Positions 28,094 to 56,706 of a stretch of 58,367 bases of DNA are shown one piece after another. Origin of the DNA: Desulfurococcales archaeon. GTDB lineage: Archaea; Thermoproteota; Thermoprotei_A; Sulfolobales; Fervidicoccaceae. The stretch lies in NCBI GenBank assembly GCA_027014955.1, contig JALWDA010000073.1, positions 76,926 to 135,292 on the forward strand, in the 5' to 3' direction. The notes under the pieces were generated by a model. It searched no databases. It saw only the letters and a list, made by a program, of their open reading frames with translations, and was not told the origin of the DNA. How positions within the stretch are numbered: the stretch's first letter is position 1; each line of letters opens with the position of its first letter. The translations under genes and the position numbers were made by a program.

Positions 28094-28201
28094 GCCGCCG
28101 TAGCTCAGCTGGCAGACCCCTGCGCAGGGCCCCACAGGGGGGCCAAGAGCGCCGGCCTTGTAAGCCGGTGGCCGCGGGTTCGAATCCCGCCGGCGGCTCC
28201 A
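28094..28201 (+). tRNA. tRNA-Thr(UGT), CCA encoded, with predicted D-arm intron 28116..28147
   Basis: Acceptor GCCGCCG/CGGCGGC, anticodon arm GCCGGC-CTTGTAA-GCCGGT, T-arm GCGGG-TTCGAAT-CCCGC, discriminator T + CCA; D-arm GCTC...GAGC only closes after removal of 32 nt. Confidence 0.93.
28116..28147 (+). other. Predicted BHB tRNA intron in D-arm
   Basis: UGGC(28110-28113)/GCCA(28142-28145) central helix flanked by AGA (28114-28116) and AGA (28146-28148) bulges; cutting each after the second nt gives GCUC-AGCUGGCA-GAGC. Confidence 0.8.
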
Positions 28202-46076: not shown

Positions 46077-47447
46077 GTGTACCTGGCCGAAAAATTCGCA
46101 AAATACGCAGTAGAGGACGTTTCCTATAACAAGGTCACACCCAAGCTCCTAGAGGAGGTCAAGCGAAGAGTCGTCGACAGCTTCGGGGTCATGATGGGAG
46201 CCTACAACGCGGAACCGCCTAGAATCTCCCGCCAGGTGGCCCTCCTGGGACGTGGCGGTGACTATGGAGCCACGCTTTTCGGCACAAGCCATAAGACCAC
46301 GGTCGACTACGCTAGCTTCGCTAACGGCTGCCACGTGAGGTATCTTGACTTCAATGACACCTACCTGTCAAAGGAGGCCCTCCATCCCAGCGACATGATA
46401 CCCGCCATAATAGCCGTCGCCGAGGCCGAGGGGGCAGACGGCAAAAAGGTTGTGGAGGGCATCGTGGCCGCCTACGAGATAGTGGGGAGACTCGCCGACG
46501 CCGCCAGCATAAGAGCGCGGGGATGGGACCATGTCACATACATCGCCATAGCGACGGCTGTCGGCGTGGGCAAGGTCATGGACCTCGACGTTGAGAGAAT
46601 GACCCAGGCTATAAACCTAGCCACCACCCCCAATGTAGCCCTCAGGCAGACCAGGGCTGGCGAGATAAGCATGTGGAAGGGATGTGCTGCCGCAAATGCG
46701 GCACGCAATGGGGTGTTTGCAGCACTCTTGGCTAAGCACGGCATGACAGGCCCGTCACCCGTGTTCGAGGGGGAGATGGGCTTCTTCAAACAGGTCTCAG
46801 GAGAGTTCACTGTAGACAAGTTTGGTGGAGTTAATGATGACTACAAGCTGTTCGAGACCAGCATAAAATACCATCCCGTGGAATACCACGCCATGAGCGC
46901 CGTTGACGCTGCCCTCAAGCTGAGGGAGAAGATGGGTGGCTTCAGGGTTGATGACGTGGAAAAGATAGATGTGGAGACCTTCACGGTATCCTATGTCATT
47001 ATCGTGAAGGACCCCGAGAAGTGGGATCCCAAGACACGTGAGACGGCCGACCACAGCCTCCCCTACATAATATCGGTGGCGCTACTCGATGGCAGGGTCT
47101 GGCTTGACAGCTTCCGCCCTGAGAGGGTTCTCGCGAAGGATGTTAGGGAGGTTATGAAGAAGATGAGCGTGAGGGTAAACCCGGAGTTCGACAAGGTTTA
47201 CCCCAAGGGCATACCCAACAGTATAGAGGTGACTCTCAAGAACGGTGAAAAGTACAAGGAAATGGTCACCTATCCCAGGGGCCACTTCATGAACCCGATG
47301 ACAAACGAGGAGCTGGAGAGCAAGTTTAACCAGCTCGGAGAGACCTTCATGAGCGAGGAGAGGAGGAGACAGGCCCTGGAGCTGCTCTGGAGCTTGGAGA
47401 AGCTCAGCGACATGGGGGAGCTCATGAGGGCCTTCGCCATCGAGTAG
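46077..47447 (+). CDS. prpD: MmgE/PrpD family 2-methylcitrate dehydratase
   Basis: ORF called from 45894, but family homology begins at GTG 46077 (MYLAEKFAKYAVEDVSYNKVTPKLLEEVKRRVVDSFGV); HPSDMIPAIIAVAEAEGADGKKVVEGIVAAYEI, RGWDHVTYIAIATAVGVGKVM. Confidence 0.92.
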   Translation: MYLAEKFAKYAVEDVSYNKVTPKLLEEVKRRVVDSFGVMMGAYNAEPPRISRQVALLGRGGDYGATLFGTSHKTTVDYASFANGCHVRYLDFNDTYLSKEALHPSDMIPAIIAVAEAEGADGKKVVEGIVAAYEIVGRLADAASIRARGWDHVTYIAIATAVGVGKVMDLDVERMTQAINLATTPNVALRQTRAGEISMWKGCAAANAARNGVFAALLAKHGMTGPSPVFEGEMGFFKQVSGEFTVDKFGGVNDDYKLFETSIKYHPVEYHAMSAVDAALKLREKMGGFRVDDVEKIDVETFTVSYVIIVKDPEKWDPKTRETADHSLPYIISVALLDGRVWLDSFRPERVLAKDVREVMKKMSVRVNPEFDKVYPKGIPNSIEVTLKNGEKYKEMVTYPRGHFMNPMTNEELESKFNQLGETFMSEERRRQALELLWSLEKLSDMGELMRAFAIE

Positions 47448-47457
47448 GCGAGGCGCC

Positions 47458-48372
47458 ATGTATCCCCCCCATATAAAGAGCCCGGGGCCGAGGAAGAGCC
47501 TTAGAAGACTCCTAGAGAAGCCCGGCATCATAATAGCCCCGGGGGTCTACAATCCCGCTACAGCCCTTCTCGCGGAGAAGATGGGCTTCGACGCGCTTTA
47601 CATAAGCGGCGCTGCGCTGACGGGAAGCCTGGCTATGCCGGACCTGGGCATAATAACCCTAGAGGAGGTCGCTCTACTGACCCGATGGATAGCCAGGGTG
47701 ACCACAGTCCCCCTCATAGTGGATGTGGACACGGGTTTCGGAGAGGCAATCAACGTAATGAGGACCGTGAGGCTCATGGAAGAGGCGGGAGCAGCTGCTA
47801 TCCAAATAGAAGACCAGGTCCTCCCCAAAAAGTGTGGTCACCTCAAAGGGAAGGAACTTATACCAGCGGAGGATATGGCGAAGAAGATAAGGGCAGCCGT
47901 CGAGGCCAGGAGCAGCGGGGAATTACTCATAATCGCGAGGACGGATGCAAGGGGGGTCACCAGCTTCGAGGACGCCGTTGAGAGGGCTAAGCTATACCTG
48001 GAGGCCGGGGCTGACATAATATTCCCCGAGGCCCTGACAAGCCTCGAAGAGTTCAGAGAATTCGCTAAGCGTGTCAAGGCCCCCCTCCTCGCCAACATGA
48101 CGGAGTTCGGGAAAACACCATACATAACAACCAAGGAGTTCGAGGAGGCAGGTTACAAGATAGTAATCTTCCCCGTAACCACCTTCCGCGCGTCAATGAA
48201 AGCCAGCAAAGACGTCCTGGAAGCCATAATGAGGGAGGGGACCCAGAAGAAAGTGCTGGACAAGCTGATGACGCGCCAGGAGTTCTACGAGCTCATAGAC
48301 TACAAGGCCTACGAGGAGGTCGACAGCAGGGTTTCCAGGTGGGTTGATGAACATTTGTCGAAACGGGTGTAG
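47458..48372 (+). CDS. prpB: 2-methylisocitrate lyase
   Basis: 304 aa; GFDALYISGAAL, VDVDTGFGEAINVMRTV, AAIQIEDQVLPKKCGHLKGKELI, IARTDARGV. Confidence 0.94.
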   Translation: MYPPHIKSPGPRKSLRRLLEKPGIIIAPGVYNPATALLAEKMGFDALYISGAALTGSLAMPDLGIITLEEVALLTRWIARVTTVPLIVDVDTGFGEAINVMRTVRLMEEAGAAAIQIEDQVLPKKCGHLKGKELIPAEDMAKKIRAAVEARSSGELLIIARTDARGVTSFEDAVERAKLYLEAGADIIFPEALTSLEEFREFAKRVKAPLLANMTEFGKTPYITTKEFEEAGYKIVIFPVTTFRASMKASKDVLEAIMREGTQKKVLDKLMTRQEFYELIDYKAYEEVDSRVSRWVDEHLSKRV

Positions 48373-49905: not shown

Positions 49906-50157
49906 ATGAAGGTAGTGTTAAAGGTTCGCAAGAAAGGCGTAATAATACTGCCAAAGATGCTAAGAAACGCGATTGGGGTTAGCGAGGGTGAAAGCCTGAT
50001 AGCCGAGGTCGATGGTAAAAGAATAATCCTTAGGGCGCTGAAACCCAGGGTTGTTGATATAGACCCCACAGTTGTAGATGACATATTAAAAGAGACCGAT
50101 AGAAGGGAAGAGGAGAGGTACGAGAGGATAGTCAATCGTGGACAAGGCCGTGCTTGA
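49906..50157 (+). CDS. AbrB/SpoVT-type VapB antitoxin
   Basis: 83 aa; VRKKGVIILPKMLRNAIGVSEGESLIAEVDGKRIILRAL. Confidence 0.87.
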   Translation: MKVVLKVRKKGVIILPKMLRNAIGVSEGESLIAEVDGKRIILRALKPRVVDIDPTVVDDILKETDRREEERYERIVNRGQGRA

Positions 50158-50596
50158 CACAAGCGTTATTATAGAATACATAATTGCAAGAAGTACTTAC
50201 AGACCTATAGTTGAGAACATTTTCCAACAGTCTCTCCAAGGGTTCTTGAAACTATACATCACTCCTATAACACTAAGCGAGATTCTCTACACTGCGGCAA
50301 GAATATATGAGGCTGCAAAGTTGGAGGACCCCGATAGGGAGGCATACGATTATGTCATTTGGGTAAAGTCGATAGCGGAAGTCACGGGCATAAGTGAATC
50401 AGTTGCACTGAGGGCTGGTGAGCTTAAAAAGTCGCTTGGCATAGCACTGCCAGATTGCTATGTTATCGCAACTGCTGAATCAATGGGTGCAACTCCTATT
50501 TTTAAACGAGTTGGAAAAGAGATGAAGCCGGTCTTGAAGGAACTTAGGAAATTAGGGGTCAAATTCCTGGACGACTTTGTTCAGACTGGTTCGTAG
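50138..50596 (+). CDS. PIN-domain VapC toxin
   Basis: 152 aa; AVLDTSVIIEYI, LPDCYVIATAESMGATPIFK; overlaps vapB. Confidence 0.9.
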   Translation: MDKAVLDTSVIIEYIIARSTYRPIVENIFQQSLQGFLKLYITPITLSEILYTAARIYEAAKLEDPDREAYDYVIWVKSIAEVTGISESVALRAGELKKSLGIALPDCYVIATAESMGATPIFKRVGKEMKPVLKELRKLGVKFLDDFVQTGS

Positions 50597-50907
50597 GAGT
50601 TTTACAGTTCTCACTACCGATGAGTGCTCTAAATTATTGAGTAACGTTACTACATAAGCAGGTCATTAACATGGAGGTATGAGGGAGAGGCCAAGCCTAG
50701 CCCGTGACATATTATTAAGCAAAGCCATCACAGATGCTCGTCCTCAGTATATAAACCAGCCGGTCACGATATTGGTGCATTAATTTGACGCAAGAAAGCC
50801 TTTCCAATCACTCCTTGTCTTTCCAAGGGTTCTTGTTTGCCGCAATCCCGGCCCGTAACTCACAGCCAACAATAGTATTTATAAACTTTTAGTATATATT
50901 GTATACA

Positions 50908-51041
50908 GGGTATAGCGGGGAAGTGTTAACGTATAATAAAACTCACGTAGGGAAAGGGGCTTTTTGTAGCCTACATAGTGAGCAAACAGGATAGGGCTAT
51001 CCCCTGTCTCTAAGAGTACGTTAGACTTCTCCGCTATACCC
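50908..51041 (+). ncRNA. Predicted structured RNA (three-way junction) or MITE-like inverted-repeat element
   Basis: GGGTATAGCGGGGAAG (50908-50923) pairs over 16 bp (one G-U) with CTTCTCCGCTATACCC (51026-51041), extended by TAACGTA/TACGTTA; inner hairpins 50942-50982 and 50986-51007; TATA-like TTTATAAA about 26 nt upstream. Confidence 0.6.
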
Positions 51042-51070
51042 AAAATACTACACGAGTTAAGGCGAGGTGC

Positions 51071-52789
51071 ATGGGGTTCAAGATAGGATTAGTCATTATA
51101 ATATTAATCCTGATAGTAATAGCCGCCTATTTCTTCCTCTACGGCGGTGGGCAAGTACAGCCCCCAGTCCCGGGAGGCACGGAGGAGACACGCCAAACCA
51201 CACCAATGCAGACAACATCAACGCAAGCAGCTGAAAAAACCGAAGCCAAACCCACTACTACGCGTACACCCCAGCCAACCACGAGCACCCAGACCACTCA
51301 GGTCCAGGAAGAGGAACAAATAGAAACAGAGAGCCCAACCGGGACTCCACAGCAACAGGCAACCAATACTACTAGCAAGGAGGAAGCCGAGTCCACGCCC
51401 CTTGAATCCACGCCCCCTGTCAGCGAAACAACAACTAGCAAAGAAACCCCAAAGGAAACAACCACGGCAGAACCACAGGAGAGTGAAGTGCAGGAGCCTT
51501 GGAAAAGCCTCATTTTACCAAGTATAGAATACGCTACAGAGGCCATGGAGGATGGTTTTAGGATCTACTTCACGATAACTGGCAACGATAAGCCACCCAT
51601 AGCCACCTACTACAGGCTACCAACCCTTGCAAGCTGGAGCGAGATAACAGGTGGAGACACTGTCCCGGGCTTGGCTTTCCCTGGAAAAGGCCATCTGGTT
51701 ATGCCCATGTGGATGGACCTTTCCTTTCATGCATTTCACGACTTCGTTGGAGATACGGAAGCGTCCTTCTATGTAGCTTACTTTGGCACCGAGGGCATTA
51801 ATGATGCATTAATGAGGGACCCCGCTGGGACGAGCTGGTTTCTCTTGACGCCCAATAATTCCATAATACTCATACCATCTATGGAACTCATAGAAATACC
51901 CCCCGAGTACCGTGAGTCGGTTAATGAAGCAAGGCAGCCCGAGTGTGTTGATATGCTGGCAACCGTTGATGCTGAGCATCTGGGCCTATTTGATTCCGAG
52001 CTGGCAGAGGCTGTGCTCGCTTGGAAGGATAATAGGCTTACGATATTGCTCACGGATGAGTATCTGGGCTTTCCTATGGACTGTCTAGACACTCCTAACA
52101 TAACACTTACGAAGAGCCTCGAGTTCCCTGAGAAAATAGTGTGGGCAGGAGAGTACAGTAACCAGGAAATAGTGTGGGTCAAGACAGAGAACAGCCTGTA
52201 CGCAGTACCGATAATCTCCTATGTATTCCAGACAGGCTATAGAGTAATAAGCGCAGAAAGGATAGAACCCCACCTAATAGGGGAGGCCAGCTCATTCGCC
52301 GTTCTGCAGGAATCCATGAACCCGCCTCTAGTATTCCTGGTTAAGGATGGCAAGTTGAGCGTGGTGGAGGTCATCAACGAGTGGGAGGGCAACATAACAG
52401 TGAGGCCTGTTAACCTGGTTCTTGATGGTTATAACATGAGCGATACGATTGTAGATATATACATTAGAGAATCCGGCGAGATCTTGCTGGGCTTGCTGAT
52501 GGAGAACAATGATTTTGACATATATACAATTGACGATATTGAATGGCAGGACGAGGACACGGTAGTGCTCCATCTAGGAAATGAAGAACTGTACACAATA
52601 GAGCCTGGCCTGGAGGTAACTGGATTCTCTATGTATATTCGATATGATGACGATGACCTAAGGAAGCTTATAATCGATGAGGGAGGAATGGACCTAGGTA
52701 CTGACATAAAAGTGATAAGCATAGTGGCCTTGGACACCAATGACAACACCGTTATCGGGGTCCTTGACTTCGAATCCTACACGGAGTAG
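51071..52789 (+). CDS. Membrane-anchored extracellular protein with Thr/Ser/Pro/Glu-rich stalk
   Basis: 572 aa; GLVIIILILIVIAAYFFLYGGG anchor, ~100 residues TTSTQ/TSKE-rich stalk, then folded domain of unknown family. Confidence 0.75.
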   Translation: MGFKIGLVIIILILIVIAAYFFLYGGGQVQPPVPGGTEETRQTTPMQTTSTQAAEKTEAKPTTTRTPQPTTSTQTTQVQEEEQIETESPTGTPQQQATNTTSKEEAESTPLESTPPVSETTTSKETPKETTTAEPQESEVQEPWKSLILPSIEYATEAMEDGFRIYFTITGNDKPPIATYYRLPTLASWSEITGGDTVPGLAFPGKGHLVMPMWMDLSFHAFHDFVGDTEASFYVAYFGTEGINDALMRDPAGTSWFLLTPNNSIILIPSMELIEIPPEYRESVNEARQPECVDMLATVDAEHLGLFDSELAEAVLAWKDNRLTILLTDEYLGFPMDCLDTPNITLTKSLEFPEKIVWAGEYSNQEIVWVKTENSLYAVPIISYVFQTGYRVISAERIEPHLIGEASSFAVLQESMNPPLVFLVKDGKLSVVEVINEWEGNITVRPVNLVLDGYNMSDTIVDIYIRESGEILLGLLMENNDFDIYTIDDIEWQDEDTVVLHLGNEELYTIEPGLEVTGFSMYIRYDDDDLRKLIIDEGGMDLGTDIKVISIVALDTNDNTVIGVLDFESYTE

Positions 52790-52966
52790 TGTGTCCATAA
52801 GGTTTTTTTCACTAATCCCTCTACATACAGAGGCCCTCTAGCATCTTATAACGTCGGACCTTAAGATAATACACTAACACAATAAATCTAATATAAGAGG
52901 CAGCTTATCTAGGACCCCACTAAAGATGAGCCACCCTCTACCCGGGTCCTCCAGCTCTTCCAGCTG

Positions 52967-54439
52967 GTGGTGGCGCCTTTGCCCACTTCCACCTTTTCGG
53001 TGCCGTATAGGAGGATAGCATTCGCCTCGGCCCTCATGATTGTAGCATATGTTCTAACACTATATAGTAGCAGGCGGATTGACGGAGACGACCTCTACTA
53101 CCTGAATGCAGTGGCATCTCTGATAACCTCCATAGTAGCCTGGAATGCTACCAGTTCTCTGAGAACCCTGGGGGGCCAGAGTAGAACACTAGAGACTGTG
53201 ACCCAGCGTGTCCTGGGTGCAATTTTATTCCCACCCATTACAGTTCTGGTCTCGCTCCTGCTGGTCCTCAGCTTCTTGAACCCCTATCTCCTGACCAGGG
53301 ATGTCGTCTGGATGCACCTGGTCCTAGTATCGCTCCAGGCCCTTTACCACTCCACCCTCCTTTCCCTTCTCCTGACTCGCCTAGAGACTGGTAAGTGGGG
53401 TCTTAGAGTGGTTGCTTTGGCCTTCTTTGTTGTATATCCACTCCTAGTGGTCCTAGGACAGTTCGGGATGGAGGAGAGCCAGGGTAGAGACATTGTCTTG
53501 TCAAGGGTCCCCCTGATATTACCCTACCCAGCCCTGGTTTTCTCCCCTGACCTAGGCTCGCCTGCGCGTCAGGAAGATTACAGTGTCCTAACCTTTGCCG
53601 TATCCCTGCTCTACATGTTAATATCATCCTCACTAGGACTGGTACTACTCAAGCCAAGAAGAGGCAGAATTAAAACCCCTCCCAAACCAAGCCGGGGATA
53701 CAATGGGGCGATAACCCTGATGGCAACGCTGGCTCTGGTCGCCTCCCTTACAGCAGTGGGCATATACATGCATGCCCACACAATGGGTAAAACCTACGCC
53801 TCTCACCCCCCGGCCCTTATAGTAGCAGGCGAAGCCCCCGAGGGGCTCTACACTATAGGCCTTGTAAAAGTTACAAGCCAGGTGGACCAGAGCAGGTATC
53901 CCCTCCTTCTCGATCCCAACAACTACACTCTACAGTTGAGCTGGTCCCCCGGGGAAATACCCACAGGAAACCAAGGTTTCCCCACAAGTAACTGCAAAGC
54001 CTACAGGGTAGAAGAGGACCACTGGCAGAACCTTGCCACAATCCTAAGCAACGTCACAGAAGACGGACACTCCCAAGTCTACATGGTGCCCCCGTCCCTT
54101 ATAGAAAGCCTGCTAAACACACTGGAAACCAGCGGGTCCGAGGAGCTGGCATGCGACACGGTAATAGGGAGCATGGAGGGTGGTAGAAGCAAGTATATCG
54201 TATGGGTAGCTAAAGCCCCCGTGGAAAACATGAATCATAAACAAACATCAAATGAAGGAACAGGCAGTGTAATGGACGGTGCAAACCATGGCAAAATAGA
54301 GTGGCATATCGTCACTCGCTACACCGGCATGGTTATAGTAACCAAGATGATGCCTCCCAGCACCCTGCCGCCCGTTTCCCACCCATTCCTGGCACTCCTG
54401 GCGGCTATTATACTTGGTAAAAAATTGAGAAAACAATAA
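52967..54439 (+). CDS. Polytopic membrane protein, unknown family
   Basis: 490 aa; several hydrophobic segments, extracellular domain, C-terminal hydrophobic LALLAAIILGKKLRKQ. Confidence 0.65.
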   Translation: MVAPLPTSTFSVPYRRIAFASALMIVAYVLTLYSSRRIDGDDLYYLNAVASLITSIVAWNATSSLRTLGGQSRTLETVTQRVLGAILFPPITVLVSLLLVLSFLNPYLLTRDVVWMHLVLVSLQALYHSTLLSLLLTRLETGKWGLRVVALAFFVVYPLLVVLGQFGMEESQGRDIVLSRVPLILPYPALVFSPDLGSPARQEDYSVLTFAVSLLYMLISSSLGLVLLKPRRGRIKTPPKPSRGYNGAITLMATLALVASLTAVGIYMHAHTMGKTYASHPPALIVAGEAPEGLYTIGLVKVTSQVDQSRYPLLLDPNNYTLQLSWSPGEIPTGNQGFPTSNCKAYRVEEDHWQNLATILSNVTEDGHSQVYMVPPSLIESLLNTLETSGSEELACDTVIGSMEGGRSKYIVWVAKAPVENMNHKQTSNEGTGSVMDGANHGKIEWHIVTRYTGMVIVTKMMPPSTLPPVSHPFLALLAAIILGKKLRKQ

Positions 54440-54593: not shown

Positions 54594-55079
54594 TTATTCT
54601 AGTAGCTTTATCACATTATCAGGAGTATAAACAGTGCCTTCTACCTCATAGCCACGTCTTCTTAAGAAATCTATAAGGCTCAAGTCCATAGTAAGGAAGG
54701 GAATGCCCTCTACGCGAGCGGTTGCGTAGTGAAGGGCATCAATGTAATCACCATGTCCATCCCTGTATATTATCATTGCCCGGATAAGGGCCTCAGGGCT
54801 AGGGCTGATGAGATGGTAAGATCTGCGTATAGCTCTGAGGCCTAGCTCAACACGGCTGAGCCTGTCCTCTGGAACCAGTTTAAGAACTTTCCACAGTGCT
54901 TCAAGGAGTCCTACCTCTAGGTAGTTGATCTCAAACCTGTGGAATAGACTGATGGCACTGAGGGCATTCTCCTCGACATCTATTCCTAGTGCTGGGAGGA
55001 GAAAAGTGGTGTCAACAAGTAGGCGTGGCTTACTTCTCCCCAATATACCTTTTCTGATGTTCAATACTTTCCGCCTCAA
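54594..55079 (-). CDS. PIN-domain VapC-type toxin
   Basis: 161 aa; LLVDTTFLLPALGIDVEE, YIDALHYATARVEGIPFLTMDLSLIDFLRRRG. Confidence 0.88.
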   Translation of the reverse strand: MRRKVLNIRKGILGRSKPRLLVDTTFLLPALGIDVEENALSAISLFHRFEINYLEVGLLEALWKVLKLVPEDRLSRVELGLRAIRRSYHLISPSPEALIRAMIIYRDGHGDYIDALHYATARVEGIPFLTMDLSLIDFLRRRGYEVEGTVYTPDNVIKLLE

Positions 55080-55293
55080 GCTCCTCTAGGCTGACCCGCA
55101 CAATCTTCTCACCCTGAAGAGAAAGCTCAACCGCATCGGGGACCTTTTCGAGAACAATCCTTCCTTCCTCAATCCTCAACTCCAGCCTACTGCCCTCCCT
55201 TATACCAAGCATATCAGCAACAGCCTTTGGGATAACCAGGGTCCTCCTCTTACCAACACGGACCTCTAGAGTATGACTCACTCTACCACCCAT
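55030..55293 (-). CDS. AbrB-type VapB antitoxin
   Basis: 87 aa; VRVGKRRTLVIPKAVADMLGIREGSRLELRIEEGRIVLEKV; overlaps toxin start. Confidence 0.87.
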   Translation of the reverse strand: MGGRVSHTLEVRVGKRRTLVIPKAVADMLGIREGSRLELRIEEGRIVLEKVPDAVELSLQGEKIVRVSLEELEAESIEHQKRYIGEK

Positions 55294-56160: not shown

Positions 56161-56282
56161 ACAGGATGTTCGAGGAGAAGGATTATCGGGAGCTAGTGGA
56201 CTACCTTGCAAGTCTTCCCAAGGGTAAGGTAGAACTACTTGATCTAGTGGAGGAGCTGTATCTTGAGGAGGCTCTTCGTTGA
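56061..56282 (+). CDS. DUF104-type antitoxin
   Basis: 73 aa; MSKVIRVKYEKGVLKPLEPLVLREGEEVEVVIK. Confidence 0.88.
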   Translation: MSKVIRVKYEKGVLKPLEPLVLREGEEVEVVIKHRMFEEKDYRELVDYLASLPKGKVELLDLVEELYLEEALR

Positions 56283-56706
56283 TGCCAATATATTCATCCG
56301 CATAATATTCAACAAAGAACACGGTCTCCTTGAACACCTAGTAGGAACAGAGCCTTACACCTCTACCCACGTCCTGGAAGAGGCGGCATACAAGCTCATA
56401 GCCCTCTCCATAATCGAATCACAGGGACCCGTGAGCGCCTACAAGGTGAGGAAGCTATTCGAGAAGGGAGCCGCGGAAGAGACCATTAGAGCTAGACTGG
56501 TTGCACTCGATAGGATAGCTGGGAAGCTAAATGTAATCCCACCAACATACAGTGACTTCAAAGAAAGCGAGAAAATAGCATTGGAGCACAAGCTGTTGCC
56601 AAGCGACGCCCTAATCGTGGCAATCATGAGGAGAGAGGAGATAAAAGAAATACTAACACTAGACAGCGATTTCGAAAGGGTACCCTGGCTAAGGATTATA
56701 CCCTAG
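56263..56706 (+). CDS. PIN-domain VapC toxin
   Basis: 147 aa; LFVDANIFIRIIFNKEHGLLEHL, LLPSDALIVAIMRREEIKEILTLDSDFERVPWLRII. Confidence 0.9.
   Translation: MRRLFVDANIFIRIIFNKEHGLLEHLVGTEPYTSTHVLEEAAYKLIALSIIESQGPVSAYKVRKLFEKGAAEETIRARLVALDRIAGKLNVIPPTYSDFKESEKIALEHKLLPSDALIVAIMRREEIKEILTLDSDFERVPWLRIIP

Follow-up and report, generated by a model that had tools for sequence, protein, structure and literature searches.

Among described systems, those closest to the locus reported here are the k-turn leader of the l7ae mRNA in Sulfolobus acidocaldarius (PMC5539422), the 5′-terminal stem-loops that protect mRNA in bacteria (PMC3792030) and the MITEs SM1–SM4 of Sulfolobus solfataricus, with copy numbers for SM2 and SM3 given as 25 and 44 (PMC10969869). 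Crenarchaea possess aCPSF2, a 5′-to-3′ exonuclease against which factors bound at the 5′ end shield RNA (PMC3792030). Leaderless messages are in wide use in Sulfolobus-type archaea (PMC7531240), which counts against the reading preferred below. Long structured leaders have been little described in Crenarchaea. Here we describe a 134-nt hairpin that lies upstream of a gene for a Thr-rich protein in a 58,367-nt stretch of DNA (the window) from an uncultured archaeon that belongs to a heat-loving group.

A hairpin far beyond chance

The element and the features that surround it are as follows.

50575–53004, no strand assigned: lineage-specific segment, with 610 unrelated bp in its place in a sister genome
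50878–50885, + strand: TTTATAAA, TATA-box-like, a putative promoter with its centre 26–27 nt upstream of 50908
50908–51041, + strand: the 134-nt structured element, z = −7.65, best stem in the window, single copy
50908–50924, + strand: outer stem, 5′ arm (17 bp, partner 51025–51041), pair probability 0.99–1.0 at 37–90 °C
50926–50932, + strand: 5′ arm of a 7-bp continuation past the bulged G50925, partner 51018–51024
50942–50982, + strand: possible inner hairpin 1, for which a rod-like structure is the competitor; probability of pairing 0.09 at 37 °C and about 0.6 at 75 °C
50986–51009, + strand: possible inner hairpin 2, best register 50989–50996 with 51002–51009
51018–51024, + strand: 3′ arm of the 7-bp continuation, partner 50926–50932
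51025–51041, + strand: 3′ arm of the outer stem, partner of 50908–50924
51064–51069, + strand: GAGGTG, a candidate Shine-Dalgarno-like sequence, unusually close to ATG 51071 (1 nt)
51071–52789, + strand: 572-aa ORF; its protein has a membrane anchor at the N-terminus, then a linker rich in Thr and Pro, and at the C-terminus a domain of no known family
52803–52809, + strand: run of seven T, seen directly 14 nt past the stop codon; a putative terminator

The 134-nt hairpin is real and far beyond chance. An earlier note on this DNA had described a highly structured element with a long outer stem, and both the coordinates and the stem hold: 17 bp (one of them G-U) are followed by the bulged G50925 and a further 7 bp (including one U-G), and together these enclose an interior of about 85 nt. 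The strict stem score of 50 ranks first in the 58-kb window, against a mean of 34 and a maximum of 42 in 200 simulated Markov windows, none of which reached 50. The length of the run is not rare by itself: with G-U pairs allowed, 6 of 25 Markov windows held one at least as long as 17 bp. The significance of the stem comes from its G+C content and its continuation beyond the bulge, not from the length of the 17-bp run alone. The fold energy of the + strand (50900–51050) is −65.7 kcal/mol; its z of −7.65 was calculated against dinucleotide shuffles, 0 of 200 of which were as good. The outer stem was kept at all temperatures tried, with a pair probability of at least 0.99 up to 90 °C.

Approximately 174 kb of other sequence (161 kb from the same genome and 12.5 kb from the sister genome) contained one stem with an equally high score: a short, very G+C-rich hairpin of 49 nt (GGCTCAGGGAGAGGGGGG.../CCCCCCTCTCCCTGAGCC) at 115–163 of L063 (contig C12 of genome G000). 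With a more permissive stem score the element did not stand out in the window, because such a score rewards long, loosely paired stretches. A coarse fold scan was uninformative on the element, its 35-nt steps having cut through it; the strongest fold of that scan, on both strands, was at 47356–47530 (approximate z about −5), spanning the end of an MmgE/PrpD gene and the start of an isocitrate-lyase-like gene.

The bulged G aside, only two substitutions separate the arms, and each of them yields a G-U pair when the + strand is the RNA but an A-C mismatch when the − strand is. The stem score is 50 on the + strand and 36 on the − strand, and the energies are −65.7 and −54.7 kcal/mol, respectively. 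The arm differences weakly favour a function as RNA in the direction of the ORF; two wobbles are weak evidence, and the chance that both should fall on the + strand is 1/4 if both are transitions.

The interior is a different matter. Folded alone it has a z of only −2.2, and the inner three-way junction, as judged from predicted energies, is much less sure than the outer stem. Both hairpins of the junction, as previously proposed, can be drawn, but the rod is lower in energy up to 75 °C. At 37 °C the prediction is a single long rod at −62.6 kcal/mol, the junction having −57.2. The rod is also the lowest single structure at 75 °C, by 2.3 kcal/mol, with a pair probability for hairpin 1 of about 0.6. 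At 85 °C a junction has the lowest energy, the energy parameters at 75–85 °C being extrapolated. For hairpin 2 the register first suggested (50986–51007) gives way to one of 8 bp, GGAUAGGG/CCCUGUCU (50989–50996/51002–51009), which is better at both 37 and 75 °C. No kink-turn was seen by eye: the sole 3-nt bulge (AUA, 50975–50977) is followed by Watson-Crick GUGAG/CUCAC. Inspection of the element also revealed neither a bulge-helix-bulge nor a C/D box.

Placement of the element before a Thr-rich protein gene

In archaea the usual distance from the centre of the TATA box to the transcription start is 26–27 nt. Given the spacing of TTTATAAA, the predicted start is therefore at 50908, the first base of the stem, or at the A before it. 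The sequence has two matches in the window where 0.5 are expected by chance, and no TATA-like site is present at the mirror position on the other strand. The promoter-like site had been noticed before: its spacing to the stem stands, but its coordinates were one base off and are really 50878–50885. An ORF-wide survey of TATA sequences gave no clear peak near −30 (many of the listed ORFs are probably spurious), and because it gave no general peak the promoter call rests on this single site.

From the end of the element to ATG 51071 there are 29 nt, as the earlier note had it, and no T-run occurs between stem and ATG. The Shine-Dalgarno-like GAGGTG fits a leadered message, which is a point for a leader; its position very near the ATG, and the partial pairing of the leader 3′ of the stem in the predicted fold, are points against. 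The putative promoter, stem, 29-nt candidate ribosome-binding stretch, ORF and T-run together read as one unit, from which we infer use of the promoter and co-transcription of the element with the ORF. On the other side of the element, the 311-nt stretch that separates it from VapC contains a frame of 35 codons (50679–50783; 34 aa and a stop; MRERPSLARDILL...) right after GGAGGT, which may be a small gene or a remnant.

The C-terminal domain of the 572-aa protein has no match above cut-off in Pfam, NCBIfam or PDB. Its homologues are found only in two genomes of another family of the same order, G193 and G194 (home genus g32), at 31% identity (E 1e-55 and 1e-46), and the G193 homologue has the same architecture of anchor and Thr-rich region; the protein is therefore real. 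The contigs that carry the two homologues break off within the gene's 5′ end or right at it (14 nt upstream in G193), and no Shine-Dalgarno-like sequence precedes the G193 homologue in the 14 nt that can be read. The absent 5′ portion of the G194 homologue was not found elsewhere in that genome; a match on its contig C135 was rejected as a Thr-rich coincidence. A profile search of the phylum returned low-complexity or weak partial matches only, and no solved structure matched the protein. The upstream regions of proteins that share its signal anchor were dropped, as these proteins are otherwise unrelated.

The best-supported reading, for which we estimate a probability of about one half, is that the element is a structured leader, capping the 5′ end of the message of the Thr-rich protein gene. 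This reading is best supported because of the placement of TTTATAAA, the lack of a T-run between stem and ORF, the presence of seven T after the ORF and the occurrence of wobbles on the + strand only. In the mRNA for the anchored Thr-rich protein, the 134 nt would open the 5′ untranslated leader: transcription from TTTATAAA would start at or beside 50908, such that the message begins inside the long stem; the stem would close the 5′ end, hindering 5′-to-3′ exonucleases of the aCPSF2/RNase J type, and would leave the ribosome-binding stretch (51042–51071) free of the fold. A regulatory role for the interior, through refolding in response to temperature or a ligand, is possible but unsupported. 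If the stem is the transcribed 5′ end, then the locus would provide a simple natural test of terminal-stem protection against 5′-to-3′ decay in archaea, the test case being a gene subject to turnover between sister species and, for now, one unreplicated sequence.

Distribution and alternative origins

The element is present as a single copy in its own genome (1.42 Mb, 71% complete, 234 contigs). By DNA it is absent from 229 genomes of the class, and it was not found in phages or plasmids. A one-sequence covariance model, applied to 226 genomes of the class, returned no true match beyond the element: the matches were the element, its reverse strand and one at chance level (20 bits) in G031. A comparison with Rfam 15 (riboswitches, ribozymes, SRP and RNase P RNA included), as the earlier note had suggested, gave no match at gathering thresholds or at E up to 10. 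Weak matches to the ends in other genomes are chance: those examined are mostly inside open frames and without a partner end. A viral contig matched the 17-bp end exactly, but only once in a stretch of 2 kb and with no palindrome partner seen, and was likewise rejected.

The nearest relative among the genomes compared is a sister genome of the same genus (a MAG labelled Desulfurococcales, JALTXS010000122.1, L026), in which gene order is kept on both flanks, with 92% and 87% identity. Between these flanks (a VapBC pair and a conserved membrane-protein gene) the segment that holds the element and the Thr-rich ORF is swapped for unrelated DNA: the element is absent, and the 610-bp spacer of the sister contains no comparable stem (lowest z −2.8). 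Element and ORF are thus lineage-specific and came or went together, with one lineage-specific segment.

The spot of turnover (50575–53004 in the window, 5114–5724 in L026) measures 2.4 kb in one sister species and 0.6 kb in the other; the two versions are not homologous, and the genes on either side are shared. At its borders the C-terminus of VapC and the start of the next gene also differ. PIN-domain/VapBC-like genes occur around the variable segment at 49906–50596, 54594–55293 and 56263–56706: a MazE-like/PIN pair (Pfam-tested), another pair that resembles antitoxin and toxin, and an additional PIN-like ORF. Elsewhere in the window (28094–28198) is a tRNA gene with an Rfam match that ARAGORN missed at default settings; at 105 nt it probably bears an intron.

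A segment that differs between sister genomes is a place in which the remnant of a MITE might be found, and the earlier note had offered a MITE as its alternative. The element would then consist of two terminal inverted repeats of ∼24 bp with a short stretch of non-coding DNA between them; it would by now be single-copy and immobile, and might yet be transcribed as a leader. The imperfect 24-bp inverted repeats at both ends, the size and the intergenic position all fit; moreover, Sulfolobus and Desulfurococcus are known to carry MITEs, and a family can drop to one copy per genome (PMC10969869). The main prediction, of copies and a target-site duplication, was not borne out: one copy is present in 1.42 Mb (71% of the genome, in 234 contigs, so that copies could be missing), and there is no direct repeat at the edges, where the flanks TATACA and AAAATA share one base (duplications can decay). 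Neither a second copy nor an IS with these ends was found in the 229 class genomes, phages and plasmids, nor is there a transposase among the ORFs listed around the element. We consider a MITE remnant unlikely. An integron attC site was rejected by eye: the ends are GGGTATA/TATACCC, not R″ (RYYYAAC) and R′ (GTTRRRY), and GTTAGAC at 51020–51026 is internal and lacks an RYYYAAC partner.

The spacing of the promoter to the first base of the stem, and a single stem that closes both ends, would also suit a stand-alone small ncRNA that uses this promoter and is freed, as a stable or circular RNA, when the stem is processed. The earlier note had left this open beside a structured leader; the leader is now favoured, for no T-run follows the stem and nothing marks a 3′ end. 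With no Rfam match, and absence from all relatives searched, including the sister species, a separate ncRNA is rather improbable.

The hairpin might instead be a neutral local inverted duplication (a template-switch palindrome) within the leader, without function of its own. It is lineage-specific and single copy in a segment that is a turnover spot, and the near identity of its arms, together with the weak structure of its interior (z = −2.2), is in keeping with a relatively recent origin. However, both arm differences keep the pairing of the + RNA, and the promoter spacing would be a coincidence; we think such an origin rather improbable. That the element defines a new class of crenarchaeal leader RNA, in which a long stem caps the 5′ end and a rod gives way to a three-way junction near growth temperature, so controlling a variable cell-surface protein, is very unlikely.

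Likeness to described systems

The element fits no known RNA family, but structured leaders and solitary inverted repeats are both of an already known kind. Like SM1–SM4 of S. solfataricus it is short and non-coding, with terminal inverted repeats and a stable fold; unlike them it is single copy, with no target-site duplication and no partner transposon (PMC10969869). Read as a structured 5′ leader, it resembles the k-turn leader of l7ae in S. acidocaldarius, which likewise is structured and untranslated, precedes a protein gene and comes from the same group of archaea (PMC5539422). It differs from that leader in having no kink-turn by inspection and no homologue, in preceding a gene unrelated to L7Ae and in its much longer closing stem. 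It is also like the 5′-terminal stem-loops that protect bacterial mRNA (PMC3792030), in that the stem is predicted to begin at the first transcribed base; the stem described here is archaeal and, at 24 bp, much longer.
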